Origin: Spirochaetota bacterium
GTDB lineage: Bacteria; Spirochaetota; Brachyspiria; Brachyspirales; JACRPF01
Reading direction: 5' to 3'
Length of the DNA stretch: 64,000 nt
Assembly (NCBI GenBank): GCA_038043445.1
Contig: JBBTBY010000003.1
Span: 1 to 64,000, forward strand
This document shows positions 29,790 to 46,196 of this stretch, one piece after another. Position 1 is the stretch's first letter; the number at the start of each line of letters is the position of its first letter. The position numbers and the translations under genes were made by a program. Below the pieces are notes generated by a model. The model was given only the letters and a program-made list of their open reading frames with translations, made no database searches and was not told the origin of the DNA.

Positions 29790-29821
29790 AGTATACCGAT
29801 GGAGTGCGACAATACCTGTCG
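29790..29821 (-). promoter_or_regulatory. regulon promoter site 1
   Basis: On the minus strand the palindrome CGACAG-GTA-TTGTCG (29807-29821), then exactly 11 bp, then TATACT (29790-29795). It is 27 bp ahead of the small gene at 29763. Same geometry as eight other sites in the island. Confidence 0.75.
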
Positions 29822-29887
29822 TCTTGATTCGCTTCGGGATCTCCGAAGATCTGCGTACTTTCCAGTTTCGTGCTGCAGCGAATACAC

Positions 29888-29943
29888 ACACTCACCCCCT
29901 CGGGGCTCCCCCTCTCTCACGGGGAAGTGAGAGAGGGGGAGAG
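29888..29943. repeat. dispersed CTC-rich palindromic repeat, copy 3
   Basis: CACTCACCCC at the left edge, then CCCCCTCTCTCAC facing GTGAGAGAGGGGG. Same family as the copies at 1935 and 2157. No gene is visible in the surrounding 29764-30304 stretch. Confidence 0.8.
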
Positions 29944-30050
29944 CACAATCACTGTAAATAATTTTCTTGGTGTATCTAGTCCCGCTATTCATACATGATG
30001 GGAATGGGACGTCCTCCCGCTCAATGTACACTAGCCGCGAAATGCGCAGA

Positions 30051-30114
30051 TCCCCTTCCCCTCTCTCACATCCCCGTGAGAGAGGGGAAGGGGCCGGGGG
30101 ATGGGGTGAGTGCA
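30051..30114. repeat. dispersed CTC-rich palindromic repeat, copy 4
   Basis: CCCCTTCCCCTCTCTCAC faces GTGAGAGAGGGGAAGGGG, followed by CCGGGGGATGGGGTGAGTG. It is arranged as a mirror image of copy 3, about 110 bp away, as copies 1 and 2 are to each other. Confidence 0.8.
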
Positions 30115-30199
30115 TTGAAGGGGAACAAAATTTATTTTGTAAGAATACAATCGACTTGGATAACCAATTCTATGACTCCATTTAAAATGCAATGAAATA

Positions 30200-30261
30200 T
30201 TTCACGCAGATGTCGCAGATTTTTTATACTCATCTGCGTAATTTGCGAAATCTGCGTGAAA
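30200..30261. repeat. CGCAGAT-type inverted repeat
   Basis: TTTCACGCAGAT and GTCGCAGATTT on the left face CATCTGCGTAATT and AAATCTGCGTGAAA on the right. Elements of this kind are common between genes in environmental genomes. It lies downstream of the AAA+ gene's 3' end. Confidence 0.65.
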
Positions 30262-30304
30262 CTCTTACCACAGACCATTTCGCTCGCCACCAAGTACTGA
30301 GGCG

Positions 30305-32521
30305 TTAGATGAATCCAATGGCGCTGCGCCTATCCAATGGATTATCCTCAAGCTCACAGGCTTCCCTGAAGTCCGCCATGGACACATGCGCACGGCGTTC
30401 GCTCGAAGCGCGGTACGCCGCCGTAATGACGGCGTTCTTGATGCGTCCGCCGGTATACGCATAGGTACGCGCAAGAAGAGCGAAGTCGATATCCGCGGCA
30501 AGCGGCATTGCAGGCGGCACGTTCGCGCGCCATATACGCTCGCGGAGCTTCGCCGTCGGCAGCGGAAAATCGATGCGAAAATTGATGCGCCGCTCGAACG
30601 CACGGTCAATGCTCCCTTTTACATTCGTGGTGAGCACCATGATGCCGTTGAAGCGCTCAAGCTGTTCGAGGAATATGTTCACGAGGTTCGCGTACATACG
30701 CGACACACTGCCGCCGTCCGCGGTCTTCTGTGCAAGCAATGAATCGCATTCATCGAGTATGATGAGTGCATCCGTGCCGTTCATCTTCTCGAACATGCGG
30801 TAGAGGTTCTGTTCCGATTCGCCCACGTAGGGGTTAAGGAGCGAGGGCAGCGAGAATGCTTTCGCCTCTTTCCCGAGATCATCGGCGAGCGCGTACGCGC
30901 AGGCGCTTTTCCCGGTCCCGCTCTCGCCCGAGAAAAGTGCGATGATGCCGTTGCCGCGGGGGAACACTTTATCGAAACCCCATTCCTTCCATATATTGTC
31001 GCGGTTGCGGCAGGAGTCCGCGAGATGCTTTATCTTCTTCCCGGTAGCATCATCAAGAATGATATTCCCGAGGTCGAGCATGCTGTGGCGTTCCACGGAA
31101 TTGCCGAGCACGCGTCGATTAGCGGTCTTCTGCTCCGCTGCAGCACTTTCGAGATCGGCCATAGAAAGCGTCGGGGCAGCGCTGTCGCGGTTAAGCGCGC
31201 GGTATATCGCGGTCAATACGGAGTTTTTGATAAGACCGCCGGTGATGGGATACTTTTCCGCAAGAAGCCGCAGATCGACATCGTCCGCTCTCGGGATGCG
31301 GTCGGATATGTGCACATCCCAGATACGTTCACGTTCCGAGCGAGTGGGTATATCGAAATCGATGGTCATGAGAATACGCCGCCGCATGGCCTCATCGATG
31401 ATGTAGCCGAGATTGGTGGCGAAGATGACGATGCCGTCATAGCGTTCTATCTCGCGGAGCACATCGCTCATATAGCCGTTGCCGGCGCGCCTGTCCGCGA
31501 GAAGGTCCTCGCCCTCATCGAAGAACACAATCGCATTATGCATCTTCGCTTCGGTAAGGAGCATGCGCAGATGATCGGCGAAACCGCGCCTCCCTTCATG
31601 ATTAAGATCATCAATGCTCACGGAGAGCACGCGCCGCCCGAGACGCTGTGCGAGGGCATAGGCGAGCATGGTCTTGCCGGTGCCGCTTTTTCCCTGGAAG
31701 AGGAGCACCGCCGCTGTTCCATAGGATATTATCTCTTCGTATCCGAGCGCCTTCATCTTCGTGAGATAATCCGCATGATTCTCCACAAGCGCAAGGAGAC
31801 GCTCTTTCTTCTCCGCATCGAGTATCACGTTCTCCCAGCGCACCTTGGGCTCAACAAGCCGCGTGAAATTGCTTAATTCCTCGGCCACATCCGTTATGCC
31901 CAGTATCCTGTTCTCAGCCGCCGCGGAAATGATGAGCTCGGGATTGTGATTGCGCATCTTGTTCGAATAGATGATGCTCGAACGTATGAGCGTCGAATTG
32001 CGTGAAAAATACCGCTCAATGGCAAGGCGCTCCTCTATCGTCGCGGAATACCGGAACACGAGCTCTGAAAGGTAGATGTCCGTGCCCTCGAAATTGGATG
32101 CGAACACGGCGAAGAGCATCTCCTGCTCATTATGATCGAGCCCGTATTCGGCGGAGAGCGCCTCAATTCCCGGCACAAAGCCGGATAGTCCTCTACGCAC
32201 CGCCGCCTTCGCTGCAAAAACATCCACCCTCCTCCGCGCTTCCATTGCCGCTTCCGGGTCGCTTTTAAGAAGTCGTACCGTGTTGGCATTCGTTCGGCTA
32301 TCACAATGATCCTCGCCGGAGGGCTTTTCTGCGAGCAAAAGAAGCGTGCGCATGGAGTGGAGCGCCAATCTGTCGTCCAATTCCTCAAGATTCGTCCGAT
32401 ACGGCGCTTCGCTCTCCATTTCCCTGAACGAAAGCTCGAGATTCCTTCTCTGGAGCGCGTTGTCGGCATAGTCATCATCATCGAGCTTTCTTTTCCGTAC
32501 CGGGCGTATCATTTCATTCAT
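30305..32521 (-). CDS. tandem AAA+ ATPase with N-terminal helical region
   Basis: 738 residues with two AAA+ modules. The first has Walker A GKSGTGKT (277-284), Walker B IVFFDEGED (331-339), sensor Asn in FATNLG (370) and paired Arg 380-382. The second has GESGTGKS (532-539), ALIILDECDS (585-594) and TTNVKG with FERR. The first 230 residues are helical and may be a winged-helix adaptor. The closest style is the Cdc48/ClpX-like remodellers. A remodelling or unfolding role is inferred; the target is unknown. The ATG lies about 12 nt after the start point predicted from promoter site 2. Confidence 0.85.
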   Translation of the reverse strand: MNEMIRPVRKRKLDDDDYADNALQRRNLELSFREMESEAPYRTNLEELDDRLALHSMRTLLLLAEKPSGEDHCDSRTNANTVRLLKSDPEAAMEARRRVDVFAAKAAVRRGLSGFVPGIEALSAEYGLDHNEQEMLFAVFASNFEGTDIYLSELVFRYSATIEERLAIERYFSRNSTLIRSSIIYSNKMRNHNPELIISAAAENRILGITDVAEELSNFTRLVEPKVRWENVILDAEKKERLLALVENHADYLTKMKALGYEEIISYGTAAVLLFQGKSGTGKTMLAYALAQRLGRRVLSVSIDDLNHEGRRGFADHLRMLLTEAKMHNAIVFFDEGEDLLADRRAGNGYMSDVLREIERYDGIVIFATNLGYIIDEAMRRRILMTIDFDIPTRSERERIWDVHISDRIPRADDVDLRLLAEKYPITGGLIKNSVLTAIYRALNRDSAAPTLSMADLESAAAEQKTANRRVLGNSVERHSMLDLGNIILDDATGKKIKHLADSCRNRDNIWKEWGFDKVFPRGNGIIALFSGESGTGKSACAYALADDLGKEAKAFSLPSLLNPYVGESEQNLYRMFEKMNGTDALIILDECDSLLAQKTADGGSVSRMYANLVNIFLEQLERFNGIMVLTTNVKGSIDRAFERRINFRIDFPLPTAKLRERIWRANVPPAMPLAADIDFALLARTYAYTGGRIKNAVITAAYRASSERRAHVSMADFREACELEDNPLDRRSAIGFI

Positions 32522-32539
32522 GGTGCAACTCCATGACTA

Positions 32540-32571
32540 AATATACCGCATGAATACGACAGAATTTGTCG
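32540..32571 (-). promoter_or_regulatory. regulon promoter site 2
   Basis: Minus-strand palindrome CGACAA-ATT-CTGTCG (32557-32571), 11-bp spacer, TATATT (32540-32545). Drives the tandem AAA+ gene at 32521. The 280-bp gap behind it is AT-rich and otherwise empty, apart from a short CTTCGACAAGCTCAGGAC repeat near 32780. Confidence 0.75.
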
Positions 32572-32803
32572 CGCGGCGGCGGTGATAAATTCCTGATAAA
32601 CATGTGGCTGCAATTGAATTCGAAAAAGAAAACGTAATTGTAAAATACGTTTCTATCGTATAAGGATTTACTCAATATTAAGATGAAAAGAAAAAACATT
32701 AAGCGCGCCTTAACTTCATACAACAGCCGCTATACGCTCCGCTTCTCACTACCTTTCCCCTCGAAAAGACTTCGTCACGACTTCGACAAGCTCAGGACGG
32801 CGC

Positions 32804-33192
32804 TCAGCCCAAATCGGTAAATTCTTTATCGCCTTTCCCGCACCATGCTGCGACCTCCTCCTGTATTTCATTGAAATAGTTCTCCGCATTCGTACACATG
32901 ATAACCGCCGTGCGTAAATCCTTCGCTTTTTCCGTCAGCCCCCGCGCATCGCATGCCAATGCGAGCATGAGCCGCAATTTACCGGCACATTTGCCGCAGA
33001 TGATCTTTTTTGCGGTATTCGATAATTTTTGAACGCGGCATCGAAGTCCGTATCGGTACTGCCGACGAGGACATGATACACGTCCGAAAGCTGTTTCAGC
33101 GTGACCGTTCTGCTTTTTTTGAGCGGGCAATAAGATATCGTTTTCATCGCATGGACAAAGTCACCGATCGTTCTTTTATCGTTCTGCTTCAT
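32804..33192 (-). CDS. unknown small protein, apparent frameshift at a poly-A run
   Basis: The ATG at 33192 has AAGGAG upstream and follows the AAA+ gene by 9 bp. The first frame reads MKQNDKRTIGDFVHAMKTIS, then LKQLSDVYHVLVGSTDTDFDAAF to RIPQK. After the T6 run on the plus strand (33006-33011) the other frame continues KIICGKCAGKLRLMLALA and ends at 32804 with EFTDLG. Seven instead of six A residues would give one protein of about 129 residues with a CGKC motif. No family recognised. It is the last gene of the three-gene operon from promoter site 3. Confidence 0.55.
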
Positions 33193-33201
33193 CGATACTC
33201 C

Positions 33202-34764
33202 TTACTCGTCCGTCTTGAACCCGAGCATTTTCTGCCTGTTCTGATTGCGCTCTATCTCCTTTAATGCTTTCTTCACATCCTCATCATCGATGCATATCTC
33301 CGCGGACGTCCCTTTCTTAAGCGCATTACGCATGATGCAGGTGGAAAGCTCCACGGCCATGGCCCCCGACATGACGGTATGCTCCGGTATGACGTCATTG
33401 AACGATGCGAACGATGTCCGTAAGCCCGAGAGTTTCTTCGTCACAAGATCGATGATGCACGATCTCCCGAGCTCCCCGAGGAAGATCCTGGCATCTATCC
33501 TCCCGGGCCGCTCTACGACGGCCTTCTCCACGTTATCGATGCGGTTCGTCGTTACCACGACCAGTATGCCGTCATTCTCCTCAAGCCCGTCCAAGTGCGA
33601 CATGATGGTCGGCACGATGTTCTTCCCATCGTCCCCCGATTCCCTGTCCTTCATGAAGAAATCGATGTCCTCGAGAATGATGACAGCCGGTGCGCCCAGC
33701 CGCGCGAGGCGGAATATGCGGTCTATGTCGTCGGAACGGTTCACATCCCCGGCCTTTACCCAGATGACGGTCTCCTGCAGGGTGGTCGCGATTATCTTCG
33801 CTATCATCGTCTTCCCGGTGCCCGGCGGCCCGTAGAGCGCAACCCCGCGCTTGAACGGGAGATTCGCTTTGCGGTACGCATCCTTCATGCCGAAGAATCC
33901 GAATATCTCGGTCATTACCTCCTTTCGTGCGCGCTCCTCAAGGACGATATCGCTCATGGTCACTTTCTCCTTGAGCTTGATGATGCGCTGATCCCCCGTG
34001 AATTTCCCTCCCTTAAGGTCGAGGTCCCCGAACAATGTCTCCTCGAAACAGGAATCGAAGATGTGCTGTACCGTCTCGGCGTCCTTCCTCCGCGCATACA
34101 CGGTGAGGAAATACCGTGTCCTGCCGTCGAAATTCTCCGACTTCGTAATGCCTGCCGCGCACACGATGCCGTCCTTTTCATACACGCGGAAGCTGTTTAT
34201 CTCCGCGTATTTGTAGACCTTCTCGCGCACTTCTATGCGCAGCGACGATGCGGCCTTCTCGGAGTCTTCGGGCGTCTGATATTCGACGATGCCGCGCGGC
34301 GTATATGCAGCGAAAAGTTTATCGAGCACATGCAGCGCAGGCAGAAGGAGATTTTCCGGGAGCGTATAGACCTTCATCTCAAGGGGCTTGTCCAGGAATG
34401 CGATGAGATGCTCAAGCGATATGAACTCGTCAGGGATACGCGTCTTGATGCCCTCATGTATCCTCTCCACATGCGCTCGAAGTTCTTCGTCGGTCATGGT
34501 CTCGGAGCTGAACGACGCGATGTGCCGTCCATCGCGGACATCGTGAAGGCGTTTCTCCGTAAGCGTTACCGTCATGTCGCGCGGGGTGCTGTTGAAATGA
34601 AGCTTCGTCTTAAATCGGAGCGGAACGGATATCCTGCTGCTCAAAAACTGCAGTACCGGCTTTTCCACTTCTTCGATAGCGCATCCCTTCCCGGGGAGGG
34701 ATTTGATCACGTCGAGCAGGGGTATCATGTCGAATGTCGTCAGATAGATGACTTGCTCTCCCAT
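33202..34764 (-). CDS. AAA+ ATPase (Cdc48/FtsH-like module) with unknown N-terminal domain
   Basis: 520 residues. About 270 N-terminal residues match no domain I know. The AAA+ module has Walker A GPPGTGKT (312-319), Walker B VIILEDID (361-368), sensor in VVTTNRID and the arginine-finger segment RPGRID (419-424). The RPGR pattern is typical of the classical AAA subfamily that forms hexameric unfoldases. No protease or membrane segment is fused. It lies between two small unknown genes, with AGGAGG before its ATG, and all three depend on promoter site 3. Confidence 0.85.
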   Translation of the reverse strand: MGEQVIYLTTFDMIPLLDVIKSLPGKGCAIEEVEKPVLQFLSSRISVPLRFKTKLHFNSTPRDMTVTLTEKRLHDVRDGRHIASFSSETMTDEELRAHVERIHEGIKTRIPDEFISLEHLIAFLDKPLEMKVYTLPENLLLPALHVLDKLFAAYTPRGIVEYQTPEDSEKAASSLRIEVREKVYKYAEINSFRVYEKDGIVCAAGITKSENFDGRTRYFLTVYARRKDAETVQHIFDSCFEETLFGDLDLKGGKFTGDQRIIKLKEKVTMSDIVLEERARKEVMTEIFGFFGMKDAYRKANLPFKRGVALYGPPGTGKTMIAKIIATTLQETVIWVKAGDVNRSDDIDRIFRLARLGAPAVIILEDIDFFMKDRESGDDGKNIVPTIMSHLDGLEENDGILVVVTTNRIDNVEKAVVERPGRIDARIFLGELGRSCIIDLVTKKLSGLRTSFASFNDVIPEHTVMSGAMAVELSTCIMRNALKKGTSAEICIDDEDVKKALKEIERNQNRQKMLGFKTDE

Positions 34765-34773
34765 AACAGCCTC

Positions 34774-35181
34774 CTAGAGCTCGCGTTTGATATGTGATCT
34801 GATCTCCTTCACTGTCTTCACGTCCGGAATTTTCACCGGATGCTTTCTTGTCCCCAGCTGCACATCGTCCATGTCGTATTGGATCGTGCCGCCGTTCATG
34901 TCGATCTCGCCGACCACGGCGCCGATGACCTTTCGGACGGCCTCTTCGCGCACGATGCAGAGATTCCTTCCGGCGATGGGCTTGTCGATCATGATGAAAT
35001 AGTACGGTGTGTCGTGCTGTATGACGCAGAACCCGATCACGGTGCCCCGAAGCTTTTTCCCGCGCCAGCTGAAGTTCACTATGGCGTCCATCGGGTATTT
35101 CATCGTGCGATAGCGCATCGTGTCAAGCTTTTGCGTCAGCTGTTCGGTACAGATTCGCATCGGCATGTGTTTTCGTTTCAT
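34774..35181 (-). CDS. unknown protein, first gene of an AAA+ operon
   Basis: 135 residues starting MKRKHMPMRICTEQLTQKLD; the start is fixed by AAGGAGG 5 bp upstream. The central part (MDAIVNFSWRGKKLRGTVIGF, then TPYYFIMIDKP) looks like a small beta-barrel, perhaps PilZ- or SH3-like, but no family can be named. It precedes the AAA+ gene by 9 bp and could be an adaptor for it. Regulon promoter site 3 lies about 30 bp upstream. Confidence 0.65.
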   Translation of the reverse strand: MKRKHMPMRICTEQLTQKLDTMRYRTMKYPMDAIVNFSWRGKKLRGTVIGFCVIQHDTPYYFIMIDKPIAGRNLCIVREEAVRKVIGAVVGEIDMNGGTIQYDMDDVQLGTRKHPVKIPDVKTVKEIRSHIKREL

Positions 35182-35208
35182 GTGAACCTCCTTGTTCATT
35201 CTCTTTTT

Positions 35209-35240
35209 ATCCTATCATGGCATTGCGTCAGATCCTGTCA
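35209..35240 (-). promoter_or_regulatory. regulon promoter site 3
   Basis: Minus-strand palindrome TGACAG-GAT-CTGACG (35226-35240), 11-bp spacer ending in CATGA, TAGGAT (35209-35214). Upstream of the operon 35181 to 32804. Confidence 0.75.
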
Positions 35241-35241
35241 T

Positions 35242-35676
35242 TCACACTCCGCTCCTCACCGTCGTACGGGCAAGCTCGTTTTCCCCGATATCTATGACCT
35301 GTACGTCCAGATGCATGGACGATGGCCCCTTTCCATACTCACCGTTCCTTGAGCGGGCAAGGAAGCCATTGATCCGCTTCTTTGCCGATGCATTGATCCG
35401 ATAGATCTGTATCCTAAGCTGCGCTTCGCTGTAATACCAGCGCACGCGTATCCATCCCTTCCTGAGCAGATCCGCGATGATCTCCTCGCGCGCGAACTGT
35501 TCCGAACCGTACGTCTCTCCGTGCTTCCTGAAAACCGCTTCAAGCCGCTTTTTCGTATAGCCGAAACGCACGGGGTCATCGCATATCTTACTGATGTGCT
35601 TCTGTTCGACCGTTATCACTTCACCGTCGGGTGCGATGAAGAATGCGTCATGCTCCATCGGTGTCGCTTTCGGCAT
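35242..35676 (-). CDS. unknown protein, coupled to the sigma-like gene
   Basis: 144 residues. It begins MPKATPMEHDAFFIAPDGEVI and has a positively charged, Trp/Tyr-rich centre (LLRKGWIRVRWYYSEAQLRIQIYR). I recognise no family. The ATG overlaps the stop codon of the gene at 35676-35942 (TGATG), indicating translational coupling, and its 3' end touches promoter site 3. It is part of the two-gene operon from promoter site 4. Confidence 0.65.
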   Translation of the reverse strand: MPKATPMEHDAFFIAPDGEVITVEQKHISKICDDPVRFGYTKKRLEAVFRKHGETYGSEQFAREEIIADLLRKGWIRVRWYYSEAQLRIQIYRINASAKKRINGFLARSRNGEYGKGPSSMHLDVQVIDIGENELARTTVRSGV

Positions 35677-35942
35677 CAGTTGCCCTCCGGTCGTTCTTTT
35701 ACGGCCATTGAACTGATCATGAGCATACGGACATCGTTGGGCAAACGTTGAAGGGCGCTCTCTATCAGCTCTTCGATATGCGACGCCTCAACACGGAATA
35801 TATACGCTATCTCGATAGCTGTCATCGTTATCTCGGAATCTATACCAAGATAGAGCATAAGAACCTTCTTCTCCGCTATCGTCAGTGTGTCGGCGGCTTG
35901 CCTTAATGCCCTGGCGATTTTCTTCCTGTCCTCAGCGTTCAT
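35676..35942 (-). CDS. sigma-70 region 4-like small DNA-binding protein
   Basis: 88 residues, start set by GGGAGG before ATG 35942. The pattern LTIAEKKVLMLYLGID, ITMTAIEIAYIFRVEASHI and IEELIESALQRLPND follows sigma-70 region 4: the L..E..VL...YG.D opening, an IA..F.V recognition helix-turn-helix and the closing A...L helix. Regions 2 and 3 are absent, so it cannot be a full sigma factor. It could bind a -35-like element or act as an anti- or co-sigma. It lies in the regulon under promoter site 4 and is a candidate regulator of it. Confidence 0.55.
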   Translation of the reverse strand: MNAEDRKKIARALRQAADTLTIAEKKVLMLYLGIDSEITMTAIEIAYIFRVEASHIEELIESALQRLPNDVRMLMISSMAVKERPEGN

Positions 35943-35971
35943 GCATGCGCCTCCCTTGTTCTCATATCCGC

Positions 35972-36003
35972 ATTCTATCATGACCATGCGTCAGAGGCTG
36001 TCG
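35972..36003 (-). promoter_or_regulatory. regulon promoter site 4
   Basis: Minus-strand palindrome CGACAG-CCT-CTGACG (35989-36003), both half-sites perfect, 11-bp spacer ending CATGA, TAGAAT (35972-35977). Drives the sigma-region-4-like gene. Confidence 0.8.
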
Positions 36004-36021
36004 TACCCTCTGCGGCACTCG

Positions 36022-36888
36022 CTACCACTCCTTGCGTTCTGGGAATTGGCGCAGCCAGGCATCTACGACATTCGCATATGCAAGCAGTCTTTTCCTTTCG
36101 ATACGTACGCTGAAGACCACGGTATCATCCCGCATGTCTTCGGGCAGGTGTTCATACGAAAGCTGGATCGAGAGTCGTACCGTGTCCGCATCGGAAGCGA
36201 TGGCGCTGAAGAACATCGTCGGCTCGGTGAAGAAGAAATCGGGATGTACCGGCTCCGCGTCGCGGCTGAGCGTTATGAGATAATCCCGGAAATGGGAAAG
36301 CTCTTTCGTATTGCGTATCGTCGGGCTCGTCAATTCCCATGAGCGGCCGTTATGTCGTGCGTTCACGGTGATATTAAGCCAGGGGAGATCATAGTCTGCA
36401 TCGGCGTTGTTGGGATATTGATTCCCGGTGACCTGCATCGCAAGGCTGTTCTCTTGTGCCGGGAATACGATCGTGTATTTCCCGTCGATATCCGATGTCG
36501 TTATGAATTCGGCAGCGGCAGCGCTCCGAAACATCCCCGATTTGCTATGAATGAGCACAGGTTTCGGCAGCTTGTCAAACGCTGACCGTATGCGTACCCC
36601 TTCATCTTCGGTGATCGGCACTTCGCGTCCGTCGACTATCGGTATCCAGTCGACATGAAAACCACGCTCCCCGTACTGGCGGATCATCCATGCATACGGC
36701 AGATCGACCGTAAAATGCTCAGCGATATCATCCTCGGTAAGCAGGCAGATGATGGACCGAATGCCTTCTGCTTTGCAGACATCCAGCCATTCATCGACGA
36801 TGTCGGGGGTGGCATCGTTCAAGCCGTATCCCGGCCTGCTGAAAACAGCCAGTTCATTATCTATTATCCAGCGCGGCCTGTCGTTCAT
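36022..36888 (-). CDS. dual-specificity phosphatase-like pseudoenzyme fused to a WapI-like domain
   Basis: 288 residues. Residues 1-135 follow the dual-specificity phosphatase fold (SIICLLTEDDI, a possible general-acid Asp86 in PIVDG, and PVLIHSKSGMFRSA). The signature HCx5R reads H114-S115-K-S-G-M-F-R121: the catalytic Cys is Ser, by codon AGC, so it should be inactive but may still bind phosphoprotein, as in STYX proteins. Residues about 140-288 resemble the WapI-like protein at 44397 (GNQYPN, a Trp-containing strand, LPEDMRDDTVVFSVRIERKRL, W-L-R-Q-F-P-E-R). Expressed from promoter site 5. Confidence 0.65.
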   Translation of the reverse strand: MNDRPRWIIDNELAVFSRPGYGLNDATPDIVDEWLDVCKAEGIRSIICLLTEDDIAEHFTVDLPYAWMIRQYGERGFHVDWIPIVDGREVPITEDEGVRIRSAFDKLPKPVLIHSKSGMFRSAAAAEFITTSDIDGKYTIVFPAQENSLAMQVTGNQYPNNADADYDLPWLNITVNARHNGRSWELTSPTIRNTKELSHFRDYLITLSRDAEPVHPDFFFTEPTMFFSAIASDADTVRLSIQLSYEHLPEDMRDDTVVFSVRIERKRLLAYANVVDAWLRQFPERKEW

Positions 36889-36918: not shown

Positions 36919-36950
36919 AGTATACCATGATGCAGCGTCAGATAGTGACG
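36919..36950 (-). promoter_or_regulatory. regulon promoter site 5
   Basis: Minus-strand palindrome CGTCAC-TAT-CTGACG (36936-36950, one mismatch), 11-bp spacer ending CATGG, TATACT (36919-36924). Upstream of the phosphatase-like gene. Confidence 0.75.
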
Positions 36951-36951
36951 T

Positions 36952-37688: not shown

Positions 37689-38696
37689 TCAAATCACATG
37701 ACTTATGCAATGTAATAACCCTCCGAATCTAGCCAGTTCTTCTGCATCATCGACCGGTTCGACCTCGGCATATTTTCCCAGTATCCTGATATTCTTCATG
37801 AAGCATTCCCTCTCCGCCCCGAACCGCGGCATGAGTATTATATCGCCGAGCCTGAGGAAATTGATGTAACTCCCTTCAATGCTGTCAGGATACTGCTTCG
37901 AATGCTTCGGCAGACAGGATGCAAGCGTTACTATCTTTATGTCGAGCTTCGCAAGCGCTTTTTTCACCTGTACCGGCGGCGGCATTTCTACTGCGACCGT
38001 ACGGGCATCGAGGAAGGCAAAATAACCGTCCGCGTGATGCAGCCAGTCGCCGCGCTTCGAAGGGATAAATATCGGATGCGTAATGCCGAGCTTCTTCTGC
38101 AGCATCTCGATTATTTCCGCGCGTGTCTTTTTGAGTACTCGGCCTTCGGTAGTTTTTATGTCCCGGCTGTTCCGTTTGAACATGTATTCATCGATGATGG
38201 CAACACCTTCACCGTTATGCACGAGATTCCCGCCGTCCCAGACAAGCGGTATCGTTTCACATCTCGTCCCCGGCACAATATCTCTCCCTATCTTCTCGCA
38301 GGTGAGCGCGAAGCCCGCGGGAAGATAAGACGGCGCGAACATGGGCTTCATGATCTTTTTTCTGCCGTTCTCGCGTACCGCGAAGCCGGCATAGTCCCGA
38401 AGCCAGGGATAACAGAGCGAGGGCTGGATTGCGGCTGTGATATTGTGATCGTCATTTCCGTATTGCGCAGCAAGCAAAGCAAAGTCGTCCTTTGCCCGGA
38501 ACAGAATGGTTGCCGGTATCCAGAACGGAATGTGGCGTATGATGAGCTGATCGTAGAATGGGACGAGTTTATCATAGTCGTCTACGCGGCGTTTGCCGCG
38601 GAATGTATATGAGTGGCGAATGGCCTTCGGATAGGCAAGGAATACACGCGACGGCTTCTTCCAGTCGGGTATCAATTTGATATCGTTGCTTCTCAT
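37689..38696 (-). CDS. agmatine deiminase / peptidyl-arginine deiminase family protein
   Basis: About 335 residues of the guanidino-modifying (pentein) fold. Family residues are in place: YPWLRDYAGFAV, VWDGGNLVHNGEG, the catalytic His-Asp segment GDWLHHADGYFAF, and the catalytic Cys in GGLLHCISHVI. It would hydrolyse agmatine or a related guanidino compound to the carbamoyl product plus ammonia. The start MRSNDIK at 38696 coincides with the start point predicted from the -10 box at 38703-38708, so the mRNA may be leaderless; the longer frame begins upstream of the promoter and is excluded. Confidence 0.78.
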   Translation of the reverse strand: MRSNDIKLIPDWKKPSRVFLAYPKAIRHSYTFRGKRRVDDYDKLVPFYDQLIIRHIPFWIPATILFRAKDDFALLAAQYGNDDHNITAAIQPSLCYPWLRDYAGFAVRENGRKKIMKPMFAPSYLPAGFALTCEKIGRDIVPGTRCETIPLVWDGGNLVHNGEGVAIIDEYMFKRNSRDIKTTEGRVLKKTRAEIIEMLQKKLGITHPIFIPSKRGDWLHHADGYFAFLDARTVAVEMPPPVQVKKALAKLDIKIVTLASCLPKHSKQYPDSIEGSYINFLRLGDIILMPRFGAERECFMKNIRILGKYAEVEPVDDAEELARFGGLLHCISHVI

Positions 38697-38702
38697 TTGT
38701 AC

Positions 38703-38751
38703 AGCATAGCATGCCTCTGCGACAGAAGCTGACGATGTCATACGCTATAGT
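38703..38751. promoter_or_regulatory. regulon promoter site 6 (divergent pair)
   Basis: One palindrome CGACAG-AAG-CTGACG (38720-38734) serves two promoters: rightward TATAGT (38746-38751) and leftward TATGCT (38703-38708), each exactly 11 bp away. It sits between the deiminase and DnaB-like genes. Confidence 0.8.
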
Positions 38752-38784: not shown

Positions 38785-39540
38785 ATGATGGAGATACTTG
38801 AGCTCAGGAATGACGGAGAAGCAAAGGGAGTGATCCCCAGCGGCATTCATGCCCTTGACGCTATTCTCGGCGGCGGGCTTCGCCAGGGGAATGTGATACT
38901 GTTTGCATCCCGTCCCGGATCCGGGAAGACAAGCCTCGCAATAGATATCGCGTACTATGCAGCATTGAACACGTTCAAACCCGTGTGCTTCTGTTCTGCC
39001 GAAATGAGCATCGCGGAACTCTCTGAACGATTCCGCAGTCGGACAGCCGGCAATTGCCTTAATGATCATCCTGTTCTTCATCTGCACGACTCCATCCGTA
39101 CGGTCGCTGATGTTGAAGCGGCAGGTACCGGGAATACACCCGGCCTCATTGTCATCGACTATATTCAGCTGCTGAAGACCGGCAACGAAGGCACCACCGA
39201 CTCGCCTGATCTTTCCGCGGTCTCATTGGACATAAAACGTCTGGCAAAACGGCTCAACATCCCGATCATCGTGCTTTCACAGCTTCCGCGAAGCAGGAGA
39301 GATAGGCCGGATGAACGCCACGATCTCGGTGACCTTCTTGTATACGGAAAGCTTGAGATGAATACCGACGATATCGTATTCCTCTACCGTGACGACACAG
39401 CACAAAACGCAGCAATGAGCGAAGCCGAGCTCAGGGTGTTTAAGAATCGCAATGCAAGGCGGCTTGGCACTGTAAAATTATATTTTGATGTGACAAATGC
39501 GATGTTTTATAATGCAAATCCATGGTCGGTTTTTATATAG
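38785..39540 (+). CDS. DnaB C-terminal/RecA-like ATPase
   Basis: 251 residues that match only the ATPase half of replicative helicase DnaB: SGIHALDAILGGGLRQGNVIL, Walker A RPGSGKTS (43-50), catalytic Glu in SAEMS (73), Walker B LIVIDYIQLL (121-130), IIVLSQLPRSRRDRPDERHDLGD, and the arginine-finger tail FKNRNARRLGTVKLYFD. The DnaB N-terminal collar is missing, so it is not the main replicative helicase; an accessory or phage-type helicase is more likely. AAGGAGCG lies before the ATG and promoter site 6 drives it. Confidence 0.82.
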   Translation: MMEILELRNDGEAKGVIPSGIHALDAILGGGLRQGNVILFASRPGSGKTSLAIDIAYYAALNTFKPVCFCSAEMSIAELSERFRSRTAGNCLNDHPVLHLHDSIRTVADVEAAGTGNTPGLIVIDYIQLLKTGNEGTTDSPDLSAVSLDIKRLAKRLNIPIIVLSQLPRSRRDRPDERHDLGDLLVYGKLEMNTDDIVFLYRDDTAQNAAMSEAELRVFKNRNARRLGTVKLYFDVTNAMFYNANPWSVFI

Positions 39541-39551
39541 GATAAAACCAT

Positions 39552-40202
39552 ATGAAGCAATGTATTTATGAATTAGCAGGGCACTATATCGAAAATACTA
39601 TCCCATCCGATATTAAAAACGACAGGATTGGATTGTTCACAAGCAAACAAAATGCAATCAGATTTATTAAGAATAATCATAAATATATCAAATCAGAAGA
39701 GGAAGGATTTCATTTATTATACCTATCGTTAGAAAAAAGTCTTGCAAATAAAAAGCGGGGTGAAGTGCAAATATCGGTATATTTGCCAAAAGGAAAATAT
39801 TATGGTGATGATGAAAAGACCATTGACGCGGTAAAACCCTTTCATGGCCGTGCATTGAAAGACCAGAGATTTAAGGTCGGTGATATTGTAATGTTTAATT
39901 GTCCTTTTAATAGATTGCAGATTGGAATTATATCGTTACTCCCATTTACTCCTGAAAAAGTAAAAGAAATAACCAAAAATAATTTCGGCGTGGGGGTCCT
40001 TGATTCTTCTGATGATGTATATTGCATTCTATACTACGAAAACAACTTACTAAACCATGATCACGCTCCAGAATGTTATATTTTCAAGCCACATGTAAAA
40101 ATTGATAAGAAATTGATTAAAAGACTGAAAACTGCATTAAAGAAACTAGTAAGAGCAAGAAGAGCAAATACGGCATACAAATCCGACAATGCTGATCTTT
40201 AA
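39552..40202 (+). CDS. unknown AT-rich protein
   Basis: 216 residues, 11 bp after the DnaB-like gene and probably co-transcribed. The sequence is AT-rich and Lys/Asn-rich, unlike the neighbours, suggesting a foreign origin. A beta-rich centre (DQRFKVGDIVMFNCPFNRLQI) and a basic C-terminal helix (LIKRLKTALKKLVRARRA) can be seen. I recognise no family. Confidence 0.6.
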   Translation: MKQCIYELAGHYIENTIPSDIKNDRIGLFTSKQNAIRFIKNNHKYIKSEEEGFHLLYLSLEKSLANKKRGEVQISVYLPKGKYYGDDEKTIDAVKPFHGRALKDQRFKVGDIVMFNCPFNRLQIGIISLLPFTPEKVKEITKNNFGVGVLDSSDDVYCILYYENNLLNHDHAPECYIFKPHVKIDKKLIKRLKTALKKLVRARRANTAYKSDNADL

Positions 40203-40213
40203 TGTAAATCGTT

Positions 40214-40447
40214 CTATTCCCGCTTCTTGTTATTTAAATATCTTGAAACATCATCCGTCGTCAGCAGCAGTTCATCCGTCTCAATATACCGTGCCCCGAC
40301 ATTGCCGTTATGATCATCCGTGCTTCCCACCGGGAGCAGACGATTCTTTTCTGCGAACGCACGCGCCACACCGGAATATCTATATTCATATCCCCCGGCA
40401 AGTACTTCTATGCCGTGAACATACGGCAGCAGACGTGCCGCCTCCTT
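40214..40447 (-). pseudogene. C-terminal PHP-domain fragment in frame behind the SNF2 helicase stop
   Basis: After the helicase TAG at 40448 the same frame runs on for 77 codons: KEAARLLPYVHGIEVLAGG, RAFAEKNRLLPVGSTDDHN, then ARYIETDELLLTTDDVSRYL. This has the GIEV and GSDxH motifs of the C-terminal part of PHP phosphoesterases. AAGGAGG lies just behind the stop, but no ATG, GTG or TTG is suitably placed. It looks like the tail of a PHP gene whose front was replaced by the helicase gene. Confidence 0.55.
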
Positions 40448-42253
40448 CTATATCCCCAGAGCCGTATGTATCTTCCCCATGAGCACGGCATCGGGCTTTG
40501 AGAAAAGCGATGTATTGAGCGTTCTATCCTTCTCAAGGACATAACACGCCGCTTCATCCGCGGTGCCGATGGCCTCAAGATAATAGTTATTCGTGTTCTT
40601 CAGCTGGCCTATCCGGTGATTGCGGTCCTCCGCCTGGAAATGATGTACGGTCTGCATGGTGATGTCGCAGAATATCATGCTCCGTGCATTGATGAGCGTA
40701 ATGCCCGTGTCCATGACAAGCGTTGAGAGCACGGCTACCTTGCAGGAGTCATCGTGCTTGAATCGTTCGATGAGACGATGACGTTCGTGATTCCGGTCCG
40801 TACCGGCGGGCGGGTATTCGCCGTGTATGCGAATGGCGCCGTATTTCCGGTAGCGTTCGCAGAGAAAGTCTATCACGCGCGGACGCCATGACCAGAGGAC
40901 GACATCCTCATTGCCGTTCTCCACCAGGTTCGCGAGGTGATCATCGAGTATCGCCCACCGCGGATTATCAGCGAAGGGCGCGGAAAGCTCGCGCAGCGCG
41001 CGGAGGAAATACGGAATGACCTCCGATGACCGATATGCCGGTGCCGGCGCTTTTTTCTCCGGCGGATCGCCCTCGTCCAGAACGCGATGCGCATGCTCCA
41101 TTTCTTTTCTGAGCGCAGCGACACCCCGGGCATAGCGTTCGCCGAATTTCGTATCCGCATGCGTGTAGCGGAGGAAGGTCACGGTCTTCTCGGGAAGATC
41201 GAGACAGTCCTTCTTGAAACGCCGCATCACATACGGCGCAAGCTGTGTCGCAAGGAGCCGCTTTACTGATACATGATCGAGCGCGTACTTCGCGCCCTCG
41301 GCCGTCGCCGCACGGAGCGATCGCTCAAAGGCGCTGTAGGGGACGCCGATGATATTGGGCGAAAGCACGCGCATGAGCGAGAACAGTTCGACGGGCGATT
41401 TCCTTATCGGTGTGCCGGAAAGGAGATACCGATACGCACAGAACGGCGCATTGGCATGTGTTATGGCGCTTCGCTGCGATCGGTGATTGCCCAGATAATG
41501 CGCCTCATCGCATACGAGCATGGTCGATCGCTCAAGGAGATGCTCCGTAAGCGACGACGCCTCGCAGTGCGCACATCGCTTTTTCTTCGTACCGTTCGCG
41601 TCCCTGGCTCGATGGCAGTACTCGCAGGCGACTATCTTCCAGGTATCATAGGTCATGATGTATATTTTCTTTTCAATGGAGAACATACGCCGGTGCTTTT
41701 TCTTCTGCGAGCTGAGCACAAGAATATCGTCCGCGGTGAATTCCTTCGAGTATTTGAGTATCTCCGCCTCCCAGGCATATATCATCGATGACGGCGCAAG
41801 TACGATGAGCCTCCTGCATTTCCGGTGCACATAGAGATGCCGGAACACGGTTATCATGATAAGCGTTTTCCCGAGGCCCATTTCATAGAATATGCCCTGC
41901 ACGTTCGTCGTGAGGCATTTGACGAATGCCTCGTGCTGTGCCTGATAGGGCTTTGCGTTATGGAAAAAATGTGCGCTCGCGTTCGCCTTTGCGTCATGTA
42001 TGATGCCTTCCGGCAGATGCTCGCGCATCGTGCGCGCGGCATGGGTATACACATCCTCCGCGATACGCACATGCGGATAGCGCTCGAATTCGAGCAGAAA
42101 CTGTATGATATTCTGCTCGGGTATGAAAAATCGTCTATCCCCGGCGTCCTCGGCACCGCAGCGCCTGACGAGATACATCAGATAGAAATAGGATACATCG
42201 TCAGCATCGATGGCGGCCAGAAAGCGGCTGTTCTCATATACGCATGTGTTCAT
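40448..42253 (-). CDS. SNF2-family helicase-like ATPase with zinc knuckle
   Basis: 601 residues of the SF2/SNF2 class: Walker A MGLGKT (125-130), LAPSSMIYAWEAEI (motif Ia), DEAH (249-252), LLSGTPIRKSPVELFSLM, and the C-terminal helicase half with VAVLSTLVMDTGITL and DRNHRIGQ. Between motifs Ia and II is a four-Cys knuckle, CEYC (210-213) and CAHC (227-230). Such ATPases move along double-stranded DNA and remodel bound proteins; many act in defence or repair. No methylase or nuclease is beside it. Expressed from the leftward promoter of site 7. Confidence 0.87.
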   Translation of the reverse strand: MNTCVYENSRFLAAIDADDVSYFYLMYLVRRCGAEDAGDRRFFIPEQNIIQFLLEFERYPHVRIAEDVYTHAARTMREHLPEGIIHDAKANASAHFFHNAKPYQAQHEAFVKCLTTNVQGIFYEMGLGKTLIMITVFRHLYVHRKCRRLIVLAPSSMIYAWEAEILKYSKEFTADDILVLSSQKKKHRRMFSIEKKIYIMTYDTWKIVACEYCHRARDANGTKKKRCAHCEASSLTEHLLERSTMLVCDEAHYLGNHRSQRSAITHANAPFCAYRYLLSGTPIRKSPVELFSLMRVLSPNIIGVPYSAFERSLRAATAEGAKYALDHVSVKRLLATQLAPYVMRRFKKDCLDLPEKTVTFLRYTHADTKFGERYARGVAALRKEMEHAHRVLDEGDPPEKKAPAPAYRSSEVIPYFLRALRELSAPFADNPRWAILDDHLANLVENGNEDVVLWSWRPRVIDFLCERYRKYGAIRIHGEYPPAGTDRNHERHRLIERFKHDDSCKVAVLSTLVMDTGITLINARSMIFCDITMQTVHHFQAEDRNHRIGQLKNTNNYYLEAIGTADEAACYVLEKDRTLNTSLFSKPDAVLMGKIHTALGI

Positions 42254-42322
42254 AGCGCCTCATCGATGCCATCGATCTCGGAGAAGACGTCATATACCTT
42301 TCATCCGATTAAGACAAGCCTC

Positions 42323-42371
42323 AGTATATACGCCGGAAGCGACAGATAGTGACGCCTGCATGGTGTATAAT
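42323..42371. promoter_or_regulatory. regulon promoter site 7 (divergent pair)
   Basis: One palindrome CGACAG-ATA-GTGACG (42340-42354) with rightward TATAAT (42366-42371) and leftward TATACT (42323-42328), each 11 bp away. It sits between the SNF2 helicase and cyclotransferase genes. Confidence 0.8.
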
Positions 42372-42393
42372 ACGGGTGTGAGGTGGAATTGAA

Positions 42394-43185
42394 ATGAAGT
42401 ACTTCGCCTACGGATCGAACATGAATGCCGCACGAATGGAGGAGCGGCACATCTCATATCGCAAGAGGACACGCGCAACACTTGCCGATCATCGCCTTTG
42501 TTTTGACAAGATCGCATCTGGCCTTGAGGGCGCAGGATATGCTAATGTCATCCCGTCGAAAGGTGAAGCCGTCGAAGGCATTCTGTATTCTTCAGTATCG
42601 GAAGCCGGGATACAACTGCTGGATGAGAAAGAACACGTTTATACCAGGCATTACACACGCGAAAAAGTCCGTGTGAACACGGAAGCCGGCACAGAAGAAG
42701 CATGGATATATATCGCGGGCAGGGAATATCGATGCGACGGCCTTAAGCCGACATCAGACTATCTAGCGCATCTTCTTCAAGGCGATGACATCCTTTCTGA
42801 AACATGGGTCGATGAACTTCGCGATATCGAGACAGTCGATACGCATCTCTTCGTATACGGAACACTGAAAAAAGGGCACTCGAATCATCGGCTACTCTCG
42901 GGCAGCCGTTGCATAGGCACAGGGCACACACTGCGCAAGTATACTATGTATGCTGACGGTATTCCGTATGTAAAGTCAACACCCGCAACATCGGTCATAC
43001 AGGGAGAGATATATCGGATAACGGACGAGATATTGGAGCGCTGCGATGCGCTTGAAGGGCACCCGCGATGGTATCGGAGAAAACAGACGCTTGTCCAGAC
43101 CGACGGCAAGCCGACATGCGCATGGCTTTACTTCTGCGACACTGCGGACGGCACGATACTCCCGGAGGGTCGTTGGTCAAGATAG
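42394..43185 (+). CDS. double-domain gamma-glutamylcyclotransferase
   Basis: 263 residues with two AIG2/GGCT folds in tandem. The first opens MKYFAYGSNMNAARM and has a catalytic-Glu region LLDEKEHVY; the second (from about 152) opens HLFVYGTLKKGHSNHRLL and has CDALEGHPRWYRR, the GGACT pattern. Such enzymes release 5-oxoproline from gamma-glutamyl amines or peptides. The fusion of both types in one chain is uncommon. It is expressed from the rightward promoter of site 7 and ends at a clear terminator. Confidence 0.85.
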   Translation: MKYFAYGSNMNAARMEERHISYRKRTRATLADHRLCFDKIASGLEGAGYANVIPSKGEAVEGILYSSVSEAGIQLLDEKEHVYTRHYTREKVRVNTEAGTEEAWIYIAGREYRCDGLKPTSDYLAHLLQGDDILSETWVDELRDIETVDTHLFVYGTLKKGHSNHRLLSGSRCIGTGHTLRKYTMYADGIPYVKSTPATSVIQGEIYRITDEILERCDALEGHPRWYRRKQTLVQTDGKPTCAWLYFCDTADGTILPEGRWSR

Positions 43186-43206
43186 CATGAATATCGCGAT
43201 ACAGAG

Positions 43207-43233
43207 AACAAGGGGGCATGCCCCCTTGTTTTT
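43207..43233 (+). terminator. intrinsic terminator after the cyclotransferase gene
   Basis: AACAAGGGGG-CATG-CCCCCTTGTT stem (43207-43230) followed directly by a T-run. The stem sequence resembles the hairpin at 46519-46544. Confidence 0.85.
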
Positions 43234-43353
43234 GGCTCTATCGGCGATCAATAAACGCTGAGGTCCATGTTTATTTCTGACTATCGTATTTTCGCGGCAG
43301 CTGCTCAGGGCATGGACGCGCTGCCGGCATGGGGTTTACTGCCAGATCAACAG

Positions 43354-43385
43354 CGTCAGTTTCTGTCAACATCTCATGGTATACT
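43354..43385 (+). promoter_or_regulatory. regulon promoter site 8
   Basis: CGTCAG-TTT-CTGTCA (43354-43368), 11-bp spacer ending CATGG, TATACT (43380-43385). Upstream of the four-gene phosphatase operon. Confidence 0.8.
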
Positions 43386-43420
43386 ATGCCTATCACTGAA
43401 TGAAAGAAAGGAGGCTTATT

Positions 43421-43915
43421 ATGAGAAAAGTAACACTGCCGAAAGGCACGGCCGGGAAACTGTATCTGCACAGCATGCCCGGGAGAGACGGGGAGAACAT
43501 GACAAGGCTCATCGCCGAGATGCAGAAGAACGGCATCACGGTCGTCGTATCGCTTGTCGAGAAGCACGAGATAGAGAAAAAATCACCGGCATACGCCGAG
43601 GCTCTCAGGAACGGGCAATTCCCGTTCCGCATCGAATCATTCCCCATATCGGACTACGGTTTGCCGGAAGATGATGAGGCCTTCGCCGCATTCGCAGGCA
43701 AAATATCCGGTATGATCACCGAGGGTACGAATGTGCTCATACACTGTGCCGCCGGCATCGGACGTACCGGTATGTGTGCTGTCACCGTTCTCCTTGCACT
43801 CGGCATGGATCTGAGAACTGCACGGGATACAATAGTCGCCGCCGGTTCAATGCCTGAGTCGGGGCAGCCGGAGTATCTGGAACGTACTACACGACATTTC
43901 CCGGCTAAGGAATAA
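43421..43915 (+). CDS. dual-specificity/tyrosine phosphatase
   Basis: 164 residues. The signature is intact: VLIHCAAGIGRTG with nucleophile Cys109 and Arg115, and a likely general-acid Asp78 in PISDYGLP. It should dephosphorylate phosphoprotein or another phosphoester. The start at 43421 follows AAGGAGG; the track of the frame upstream is not needed. It is the first gene of the operon that also encodes an HTH protein, a WapI-like protein and a zinc-ribbon protein. Compare the Cys-to-Ser relative at 36022, which has the WapI-like part fused. Confidence 0.85.
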   Translation: MRKVTLPKGTAGKLYLHSMPGRDGENMTRLIAEMQKNGITVVVSLVEKHEIEKKSPAYAEALRNGQFPFRIESFPISDYGLPEDDEAFAAFAGKISGMITEGTNVLIHCAAGIGRTGMCAVTVLLALGMDLRTARDTIVAAGSMPESGQPEYLERTTRHFPAKE

Positions 43916-43930
43916 ACAAAGGAGAGATGT

Positions 43931-44224
43931 ATGAAAGCCAGATATATCCATGGGATAAAAAGGGCAACCGGACGCACGATAACGACAAAGATCGAACGGT
44001 TCATCAAATACATACTGATCCTGCTCTCTCACGGGAAGATATCGGTAAAGAAGATCCATGCCGAGACCGGAATATCCAAACGCACGCTGTACCGTGATCT
44101 CGTATTGCTGGAAAGCTATCTCAGTATCGAATTCAAACACGACTACGGAGAGGACATCTTTTTCCTTTCACAGTACGACAGGAAAAATCTCATGCACCTG
44201 TTCAGCACCGGTTCTTTCACGTAA
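43931..44224 (+). CDS. small helix-turn-helix (DeoR/HTH_11-like) protein
   Basis: 97 residues. A winged helix-turn-helix is visible: ERFIKYILILLSHGKISVKKI, then ETGISKRTLYRDLVLLESYL, like the N-terminal part of DeoR/WYL regulators. No sensor domain follows. AAAGGAG precedes the ATG. It lies between the phosphatase and WapI-like genes and is a second candidate for the protein that binds the shared palindrome. Confidence 0.7.
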   Translation: MKARYIHGIKRATGRTITTKIERFIKYILILLSHGKISVKKIHAETGISKRTLYRDLVLLESYLSIEFKHDYGEDIFFLSQYDRKNLMHLFSTGSFT

Positions 44225-44244
44225 GAATTCGCATCAGAAGATAC

Positions 44245-44345
44245 GGACGGTCATTGAGCGGAGTCGAAATGACCGGCATCTCGGCACCTCGGCTCCGCTC
44301 GGTGACCTTGGTTTCGCTCGGCACGACGCTCCGCTCGGTGACCGA
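44245..44345. repeat. intergenic GC-rich repeat segment
   Basis: Contains GAGCGGAGTCGAAATGACC and two copies of a CTCCGCTCGGTGACC unit around TTTCGCTCGGC. Sequences of this style are common dispersed repeats in environmental genomes. It separates the HTH and WapI-like genes; no coding signal. Confidence 0.5.
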
Positions 44346-44396
44346 AGATAGATCTTTCGAAAGAGGCTCAATGAGAAGATGTTCAAGGAGGTAATT

Positions 44397-44951
44397 ATGA
44401 GTATCAGGACGAAAAAGCCCACGGCTGCACACGAACCCGACAACGAGATGACATTCGTCTCCGGAAAGGACGCCGTTGCCGTACGCATATCGGGATATCA
44501 GTATCCCAACACCGACGAGTATCAGCCTGAGGACATAGAATGGCTGATGGTCGATGTAAAAGCCGTCTATCAGGGGAAACGATGGACATGCACGGACGCC
44601 TGCTTACGCTGCCGTGATCTTCCGCTGTTACGGGAGTATTTCACCGCCGCCCGGGATGATATGCCGAAGGGCACGGTTTTCCGTTCCATCGAACCGAACC
44701 TGCAATTCCATGCATCCGCCCCCGACACGCATAGAGAGATTACCATCATCCTCTCCATGGAACTACTCCCGAAATGCATTCGCAATGAAGTGATCTCCAT
44801 ACGCTGCCGTGTCAGGAGAACGGATATGCTTCGCTACACCGACGTTATACGCCGGTGGGAGAAAGAATATCCCGACCGAAAGGATGAAACGCCGAAGCAC
44901 GTGCCCCGGAGGAGAATGAACTGGAAAAACATCGTGGAGATAACCGTATGA
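44397..44951 (+). CDS. WapI-like immunity-domain protein
   Basis: 184 residues. The layout follows the WapI family of immunity proteins: VRISGYQYPN, DIEWLMVDVKAVYQGKRWTCTD, a helix LPLLREYFTA, SIEPNLQFHA, EITIILSMELLP and a closing RRWEKEYPDR helix. WapI-type proteins neutralise contact-dependent toxins, but no toxin gene is obvious nearby, so the domain may have another role here. The start at 44397 follows AAGGAGG. The C-terminal part of the protein at 36022 is related. Confidence 0.55.
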   Translation: MSIRTKKPTAAHEPDNEMTFVSGKDAVAVRISGYQYPNTDEYQPEDIEWLMVDVKAVYQGKRWTCTDACLRCRDLPLLREYFTAARDDMPKGTVFRSIEPNLQFHASAPDTHREITIILSMELLPKCIRNEVISIRCRVRRTDMLRYTDVIRRWEKEYPDRKDETPKHVPRRRMNWKNIVEITV

Positions 44952-44977
44952 TTTTCATAGAAAAAATGGAGGCCTGT

Positions 44978-46141
44978 ATGAACATCATTGAAACGATACG
45001 CGACAGAAAGCCGCCGATGCGGACTGACAGTGACTTTGTATATCTGTACCATGTGAAGGAGCTTATCAAGGAACGGACGGCACCGCTCCTGACCATACCC
45101 CGGGAGGAATTGCTCCGGTACATGGAGGGCACGGAATACAAGGACTATTCGAATTTCAGGGAACGCTGCAGGCAGTGGGCACAGGGGATCATCGGAGACT
45201 TCTACCTCTCCATGCTCGCAAAACTCGGCATATCCCTTGAAGAGATACGTGCGTGCATCGCCCTCGACCATGAAGAGAGCCGAACCGCCGTATCGCTCCC
45301 TTTCAGCGCAAGCACATGCCGTATTCAATTGAATGCATGCGCGAACGAATACCGCATTGCTATCCCGGGTCCGGGAACGGGGGATGATGCCCTGTCATGG
45401 GTACAGGGAAGCATATCGCCGTGGGCAGACGCATATATCGAACTCAACAGCAGGACATACTACATACACCGTAATGAATGCACGATCGTCCGCCATGAGC
45501 CGTATGTGAAAATAACAAAGACATCCGTTCTGTTCCGGCAGAAGGAGCACAGATCCCCGATAACCGGGATACGGGCAAGAGCCCTGCCCTATGTCCTCTC
45601 CGATGCGGAATTCATCTTCATGAACATAGACATACTGCTCAATGGCCTCGATGCCATCATCGCCGAACCGCGGTACAAAAATACCGTTCTCGGCTTTGCA
45701 TCGGCGGGTCTTGCCTATTTCGGGGGCGTGCCGGTAACGCTGGGGCTTCTTGCCGAACTCTGGCGGGAAGGGCTGTCTGAAACATGCCCGTACTGCGGGG
45801 GCAGGGCATATATACACTCCGCCGGGGCATCGCCGCTTTCCGGGAGCAATGTGTTCCGTGCATTCTGTCCCGCATGCAGAACACCGGTCATCGGCTCATC
45901 CGCCCGGGGCGCATCGCTGGCACGCGCATTCGTCAACCGCTACCGCAGCAGCGGATACGGGAGATCAACGGACGGCATCGATATCGATTCGATAATAATC
46001 GAACTGGCACAAGCGCAGAAGACCGCCGTATGCGGGGGGAGGGGCTATGTGATAGCAAGCAGCGAGGAGCATGAGGCACAGTTCGGCATGTCGCTCAAGA
46101 AAGGAGGACCGGTCATCGCTCTTGATACGGTAACAGCATAA
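44978..46141 (+). CDS. unknown protein with C-terminal zinc ribbon
   Basis: 387 residues, start fixed by TGGAGG. The first 100 residues are helical (FRERCRQWAQGIIGDFYLSML). A beta-rich middle follows. A zinc ribbon, CPYCGGRAYI with a later FCPACRTPV, stands near residues 270-305. The last part is helical. No family is recognised. It is the fourth gene of the phosphatase operon, 26 bp after the WapI-like gene. Confidence 0.6.
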   Translation: MNIIETIRDRKPPMRTDSDFVYLYHVKELIKERTAPLLTIPREELLRYMEGTEYKDYSNFRERCRQWAQGIIGDFYLSMLAKLGISLEEIRACIALDHEESRTAVSLPFSASTCRIQLNACANEYRIAIPGPGTGDDALSWVQGSISPWADAYIELNSRTYYIHRNECTIVRHEPYVKITKTSVLFRQKEHRSPITGIRARALPYVLSDAEFIFMNIDILLNGLDAIIAEPRYKNTVLGFASAGLAYFGGVPVTLGLLAELWREGLSETCPYCGGRAYIHSAGASPLSGSNVFRAFCPACRTPVIGSSARGASLARAFVNRYRSSGYGRSTDGIDIDSIIIELAQAQKTAVCGGRGYVIASSEEHEAQFGMSLKKGGPVIALDTVTA

Positions 46142-46164
46142 CAAATAGCACTTTCCTGGAATTG

Positions 46165-46196
46165 CGACAGTTTCTGACATGACACGAAGTTACAAT
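46165..46196 (+). promoter_or_regulatory. regulon promoter site 9
   Basis: CGACAG-TTT-CTGACA (46165-46179), 11-bp spacer, TACAAT (46191-46196). Upstream of the small gene at 46230. Confidence 0.75.

Follow-up and report, generated by a model that had tools for sequence, protein, structure and literature searches.

What ties together a set of otherwise dissimilar genes that share a 15-bp palindrome at one fixed distance from the -10 box? We addressed this question in a spirochaete genome related to Brachyspira (assembly GCA_038043445.1, henceforth G000), starting from a window of 64,000 nucleotides (positions 1 to 64,000 of contig JBBTBY010000003.1, henceforth C3). A first-pass annotation had proposed that nine copies of CGWCAG-N3-YTGWCG, each followed after exactly 11 bp by a TATAnT-like hexamer, serve eleven promoters, that they belong to a single system, and that an activator, a specialised sigma factor or a tight repressor reads them. 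The observation held on re-examination, and the single-system interpretation is strongly supported, with an activator as the best-supported of the three options. As detailed below, we attribute the palindrome to a regulatory protein of the WYL family that resembles the DNA-damage activator DriD of Caulobacter crescentus.

The palindrome and its spacing to the -10 box

We first asked if the pattern exceeds chance. Allowing up to 2 mismatches, the full pattern has 12 matches in the window, the 11 proposed promoter orientations and a chance partner at 32557+, while shuffled sequences gave a mean of 0.50 and a maximum of 3. By contrast, the palindrome alone is not significant in the window (37 matches against 32 expected at up to 2 mismatches), and it is the combination of palindrome, spacing and -10 box that stands out. 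Indeed, over 58 palindrome orientations in the gene islands carrying the sites (see below), hexamers with at least 5 of 6 TATAAT bases occur 15 times at spacing 11, but only 0-2 times at any other spacing from 4 to 24. Seven of the eleven promoters depart by one base from the strict consensus. The CATGG or CATGA that the first-pass annotation had seen before the -10 box is best read as an extended -10, since in the 21 sites of the genome G occurs in 15 two bases before the -10 and T in 11 three bases before. Column counts of these 21 sites yield CGACAG-N-TTCTGWCG-CA-N6-ATGN-TATAnT, i.e. an operator followed by an extended -10. A -35 hexamer at 17 bp would fall on the centre of the palindrome (CAGNNN), so there is no -35 at normal spacing.

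We next assigned the sites to genes. On the minus strand, the site at 29790-29821 (CGACAGGTATTGTCG-N11-TATACT) reads into a short ORF (29416-29763) and a truncated PHP-like ORF (29133-29618). The site at 32540-32571 (minus strand) is the promoter of an AAA+ ATPase with two AAA domains (30305-32521, minus strand), paralogous to ATPases behind sites elsewhere in the genome. The site at 35209-35240 (minus strand, TAGGAT) precedes an unknown gene (34774-35199) and an AAA ATPase (33202-34764), and the site at 35972-36003 (minus strand, TAGAAT) precedes 35676-35942 (minus strand) and the unknown 35242-35676. The former encodes a protein of about 88 aa resembling sigma-70 region 4 alone, based on weak profile hits (E about 4e-4). 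The site at 36919-36950 (minus strand) is the promoter of 36022-36888, encoding a phosphatase-like domain fused to a WapI-like domain, in which the catalytic Cys is replaced by Ser (the HC motif reads HS, HSKSGMFRS).

Two palindromes are used in both directions with the same spacing. The palindrome at 38703-38751 serves leftward (38703-38734, minus strand, TATGCT) the deiminase-like gene 37689-38741, whose real start is probably 38696, and rightward (38720-38751, plus strand, TATAGT) a DnaB C-terminal-like ATPase (38785-39540). As the deiminase-like gene has an ATG only about 7 bases after its -10, its transcript may be nearly leaderless; distant homologues of the protein occur in large Bacteroides phages, and mobile-element homologues of two island proteins were likewise only distant. 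The palindrome at 42323-42371 serves leftward (42323-42354, minus strand, TATACT) a SNF2-like ATPase (40448-42253) and rightward (42340-42371, plus strand, TATAAT) a gamma-glutamyl cyclotransferase-like gene (42394-43185). On the plus strand, the site at 43354-43385 (TATACT) is the promoter of a phosphatase (43400-43915) that retains HC, then of 43931-44224, with the WapI-like 44379-44951 and the unknown 44948-46141 following on the same strand. The 43931-44224 product is a stand-alone DNA-binding domain similar to the N-terminus of the WYL regulator described below (profile E 2.5e-5), but without a WYL domain. Finally, the site at 46165-46196 (plus strand, TACAAT) is the promoter of the unknown 46215-46493, with 46631-47410 next on the same strand. 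No site stands by sugar or housekeeping genes in the window. Just beyond the island, in a stretch of low GC (35-38%), lies a gene that we read as GmrSD/DUF262-like (47770-49566) and that lacks the motif, although such genes do carry it in some Brachyspira (genomes G003, G013 and G027).

Distribution of sites and a single WYL gene

If one factor reads the palindrome, the sites should not be scattered at background density, a condition named in advance together with the prediction that matches would be limited to this island and orthologous ones. Using pattern searches with reversed-pattern controls on the 5.13-Mb assembly (178 contigs), we found 21 sites with at most one mismatch against 2 for the reversed pattern: 11 in C3, four in contig C75, five in contig C98 and one in contig C72. 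Thus, the motif is not confined to the window, and the prediction came out a little differently than worded, with several islands in this genome and dispersed accessory genes in Brachyspira. Other palindromes in the genome have no -10 at N11, and their number equals the background of about 15. A search of IMG/VR for viral carriers returned 21 single hits and no contig with several, which we judged to be chance.

In each of C3, C75 and C98, one of a set of paralogous two-domain AAA+ ATPase genes is directly preceded by a site. IetA and other defence labels for the AAA+ proteins are family-level only and far below the NCBIfam cut-off. Other genes behind sites on C98 and C75 encode RhuM-Fic, PcfJ-like, FlhA-like, DnaB N-terminal and DnaQ-like, MBL-fold and peptidase-like proteins, a SLOG protein and unknowns, with some of these names being our reading of the sequences. 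The FlhA N-terminal-like protein (266 aa) lies beside the DnaQ-like and DnaB N-terminal-like genes on C98 (locus L032, 12402-14235), and DnaB-like halves are split between the C98 and C3 islands. The C72 site precedes a PLD-SNF2 helicase and a type ISP restriction enzyme, and not addAB as gene sizes had first suggested.

We then searched for the regulator. A profile search revealed a single WYL-domain protein in the genome (PF13280 over cut-off, C75:397-594), within an open frame on the minus strand (C75:1-1014) that encodes 338 aa up to the contig end, in what is a fragmented bin, with HTH, WYL and C-terminal dimerisation-type regions. The gene is divergent from the palindrome at C75:1071, which has no -10 at N11 on the WYL side. 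Orthologues of 26-28% identity occur in the sister family of the same order, in genomes identified as Brachyspira, among them B. alvinipulli, B. innocens and B. hampsonii, with one copy in nearly all Brachyspira genomes.

To determine if sites and regulator occur together, we searched 30 relatives with the relaxed pattern YGWCADNNNHTGWCR-N11-TATANT. All 18 Brachyspira-genus genomes with an intact (16) or recently broken (G011 and G014) WYL gene have 3-11 sites, 116 in all, although four of them (G018, G010, G023 and G027) have only three each. Of 12 relatives without a close copy, eleven have none and one (G015) has one. Reversed-pattern controls are zero in all 30 genomes (Fisher p = 2e-7 overall and 1e-5 inside the genus, numbers that the relatedness of the genomes makes optimistic). 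In the two genomes with WYL pseudogenes (G011:C8:543453-543840 and G014:C2:1716601-1717613), which still keep 5 and 6 sites, the regulator was apparently lost recently with the operators still in place. The one relative from the same family as G000, G001, lacks the WYL gene and has no excess of sites. In the 18 genomes plus G000, spacing 11 gives 123 hits, while spacings 12-20 together give 52, some of which are second -10-like boxes at N11 sites.

Most sampled Brachyspira sites lie about 25-45 bases before a start codon, and the targets include GmrSD, Mrr and PD-(D/E)XK-type nucleases, the RtcB ligase, ankyrin and leucine-rich-repeat proteins and an 84-aa zinc-finger-like protein. The core targets differ between G000 and Brachyspira, as RtcB, which we had considered as a common core target, is one only in the latter. 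Beside more distant spirochaete WYL genes we found no motif except one TGAC-N7-GTCA copy in G070, a genome that shows no wider regulon with TATANT. In G070 a related WYL gene (locus L055, 1039-2526) is followed by rtcB and preceded by TGACAACTTTTGTCA-N11-TATTAT.

A proposed DriD-like activator and its rivals

To learn what the WYL protein might work like, we compared its predicted fold with solved structures. An AlphaFold model of moderate confidence (pLDDT 71) matches DriD, PafBC, CapW and BrxR over HTH, WYL and C-terminal regions. PafBC and DriD come out on top by E-value, ahead of CapW and BrxR, and the highest TM-scores among full-length chains are for DriD. Sequence identity to full-length DriD chains in the fold alignment is low (16-17%), and by profile PafBC scores better (E 2e-11) than DriD (E 3.5e-7), such that sequence orthology to Caulobacter DriD is neither supported nor excluded. 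The consensus of our 21 sites, CGACAGWTTCTGWCG, shares the core CGAC-N7-GTCG with the published DriD operator ATACGAC-N7-GTCGTAT (PMC12340889). DriD sits over the -35 at a constant distance from the -10, G-14 is conserved, and driD is divergent from its target operon and does not regulate itself (PMC12340889). The promoter sequences printed there align as CGTCCGTTTCTGGCG-N11-CAAGGT for didA and CGACCGTTTCTGTCG-N11-CAATCT for driD, whereas the third, bapE, does not line up simply. Thus, operator, position, gap and gene arrangement agree across phyla.

We therefore propose, with a probability of roughly 0.8, that the palindrome is the operator of a WYL-domain transcription activator that works like DriD and is encoded on C75. 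In this view, when the WYL domain binds its signal, probably single-stranded DNA from damaged, replicating or invading DNA, a dimer released by this nucleic-acid ligand would sit over the -35 region and help ordinary RNA polymerase start at promoters that have a good, often extended, -10 but no -35. The fixed 11-bp gap and the use of one palindrome in both directions would follow from this geometry. Our analysis demonstrates the sites, their spacing, their restriction to islands, their co-occurrence with the WYL gene, and the fold and operator match to DriD; binding, the dimer, activation, ssDNA as the signal and the purpose are inferred from DriD and PafBC (PMC12340889, PMC11804915) or from gene content, as neither binding of the regulator to the operator nor its activation by ssDNA was assayed and no expression data were at hand. 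The regulon would comprise accessory genes in three islands plus one restriction-type operon, encoding AAA+ and SNF2 ATPases, DnaB-, DnaQ- and SLOG-like proteins, phosphatases, WapI-like proteins and unknowns, and it most likely serves a nucleic-acid-damage or anti-invader programme, as the Brachyspira targets also suggest.

Could the palindrome be read in a different way? That it is a repressor operator, at which the WYL protein, like BrxR or CapW, blocks these promoters until a signal releases it, is unlikely but deserves consideration, since WYL repressors guard phage-defence islands (PMC9122601) and the model matches BrxR and CapW too. However, a repressor does not need one constant distance from the -10 or a missing -35, BrxR and CapW rank below DriD and PafBC, and the published BrxR box is an 11-bp inverted repeat with a 5-bp spacer downstream of the -10 (PMC9122601), while our sites lie upstream of the -10 and on several contigs rather than at local targets only. 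Nor does the palindrome beside the WYL gene give any sign of self-repression there, given the absence of a -10 at N11 on that side. We regard LexA as very improbable: it is present in G000 and nearly all relatives and the target classes would suit an SOS response, but the lexA promoter has a TTGACA box and TGTATA/TATACA-type repeats and no close copy of this palindrome, LexA occurs in genomes that lack the motif, and as a repressor it needs no fixed gap. A specialised sigma factor, perhaps with the region-4-like protein (35676-35942), that recognises the palindrome as its -35 is hardly more likely, and it is not needed, as the -10 is standard and often extended. This protein is itself behind one of the sites and the palindrome occupies the -35 region, yet the -10 is of a normal TATAAT type, a symmetric site used in both directions suits a dimer, the small protein has no other sigma region, no paralogue of it turned up in the other two islands, and the motif tracks the WYL gene in Brachyspira.

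Two members of the regulon could feed back on it, the HTH-only protein (43931-44224), a possible competitor of the regulator, and the region-4-like protein, but both roles are guesses. A more far-reaching and tentative possibility, which we consider less likely than not, is that in the order of Brachyspira one DriD-type activator acts as a general alarm: nucleic-acid fragments made during attack or damage would bind its WYL domain and switch on a dispersed arsenal of restriction nucleases, RNA ligase RtcB, AAA+ and SNF2 machines and unknown proteins, while the stand-alone DNA-binding domain competes for the operators and ends the response. Scanning for the motif would then be a way to find new defence or repair systems.

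Comparison with known WYL regulators

These findings tie an orphan promoter motif to a named regulator by genome evidence, carry the DriD layout into another phylum and group many proteins of unknown function under one switch. The regulon can be tested in culturable Brachyspira, where the papers we searched did not bring up such a regulator. The closest known system is the DriD regulon of C. crescentus, governed by a WYL homodimer activated by ssDNA (PMC12340889), which shares the operator core, its position over the -35, the N11 gap in didA and driD, a conserved G before the -10, the divergent regulator gene and the nearest fold. The system described here differs in its phylum, the low sequence identity, a strong extended -10 with TATAAT, about 21 sites of which many lie in accessory islands, palindromes used in both directions at the same gap, and a stand-alone DNA-binding-domain protein among the targets. 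PafBC of mycobacteria (sigma adaptation; PMC11804915), the best sequence-profile hit, is likewise a WYL activator, activated by ssDNA, that lets the housekeeping polymerase use promoters without a -35, but it is a heterodimer with one DNA-contacting HTH at a -26 motif, while G000 has one WYL protein and the site here is a two-sided palindrome that can serve both directions. SiwR of Mycobacterium smegmatis (PMC10693628) is a homodimeric WYL activator that binds a palindrome between the -35 and -10, yet this palindrome is 19 bp long and located differently, and only the adjacent operon is described there as its target. Finally, BrxR and CapW of BREX and CBASS defence islands (PMC9122601, PMC9122588) are WYL regulators with palindromic operators tied to defence-type islands, but they are repressors acting on local promoters with a different operator layout and a lower fold rank, whereas here an activator appears to command such genes in bulk.
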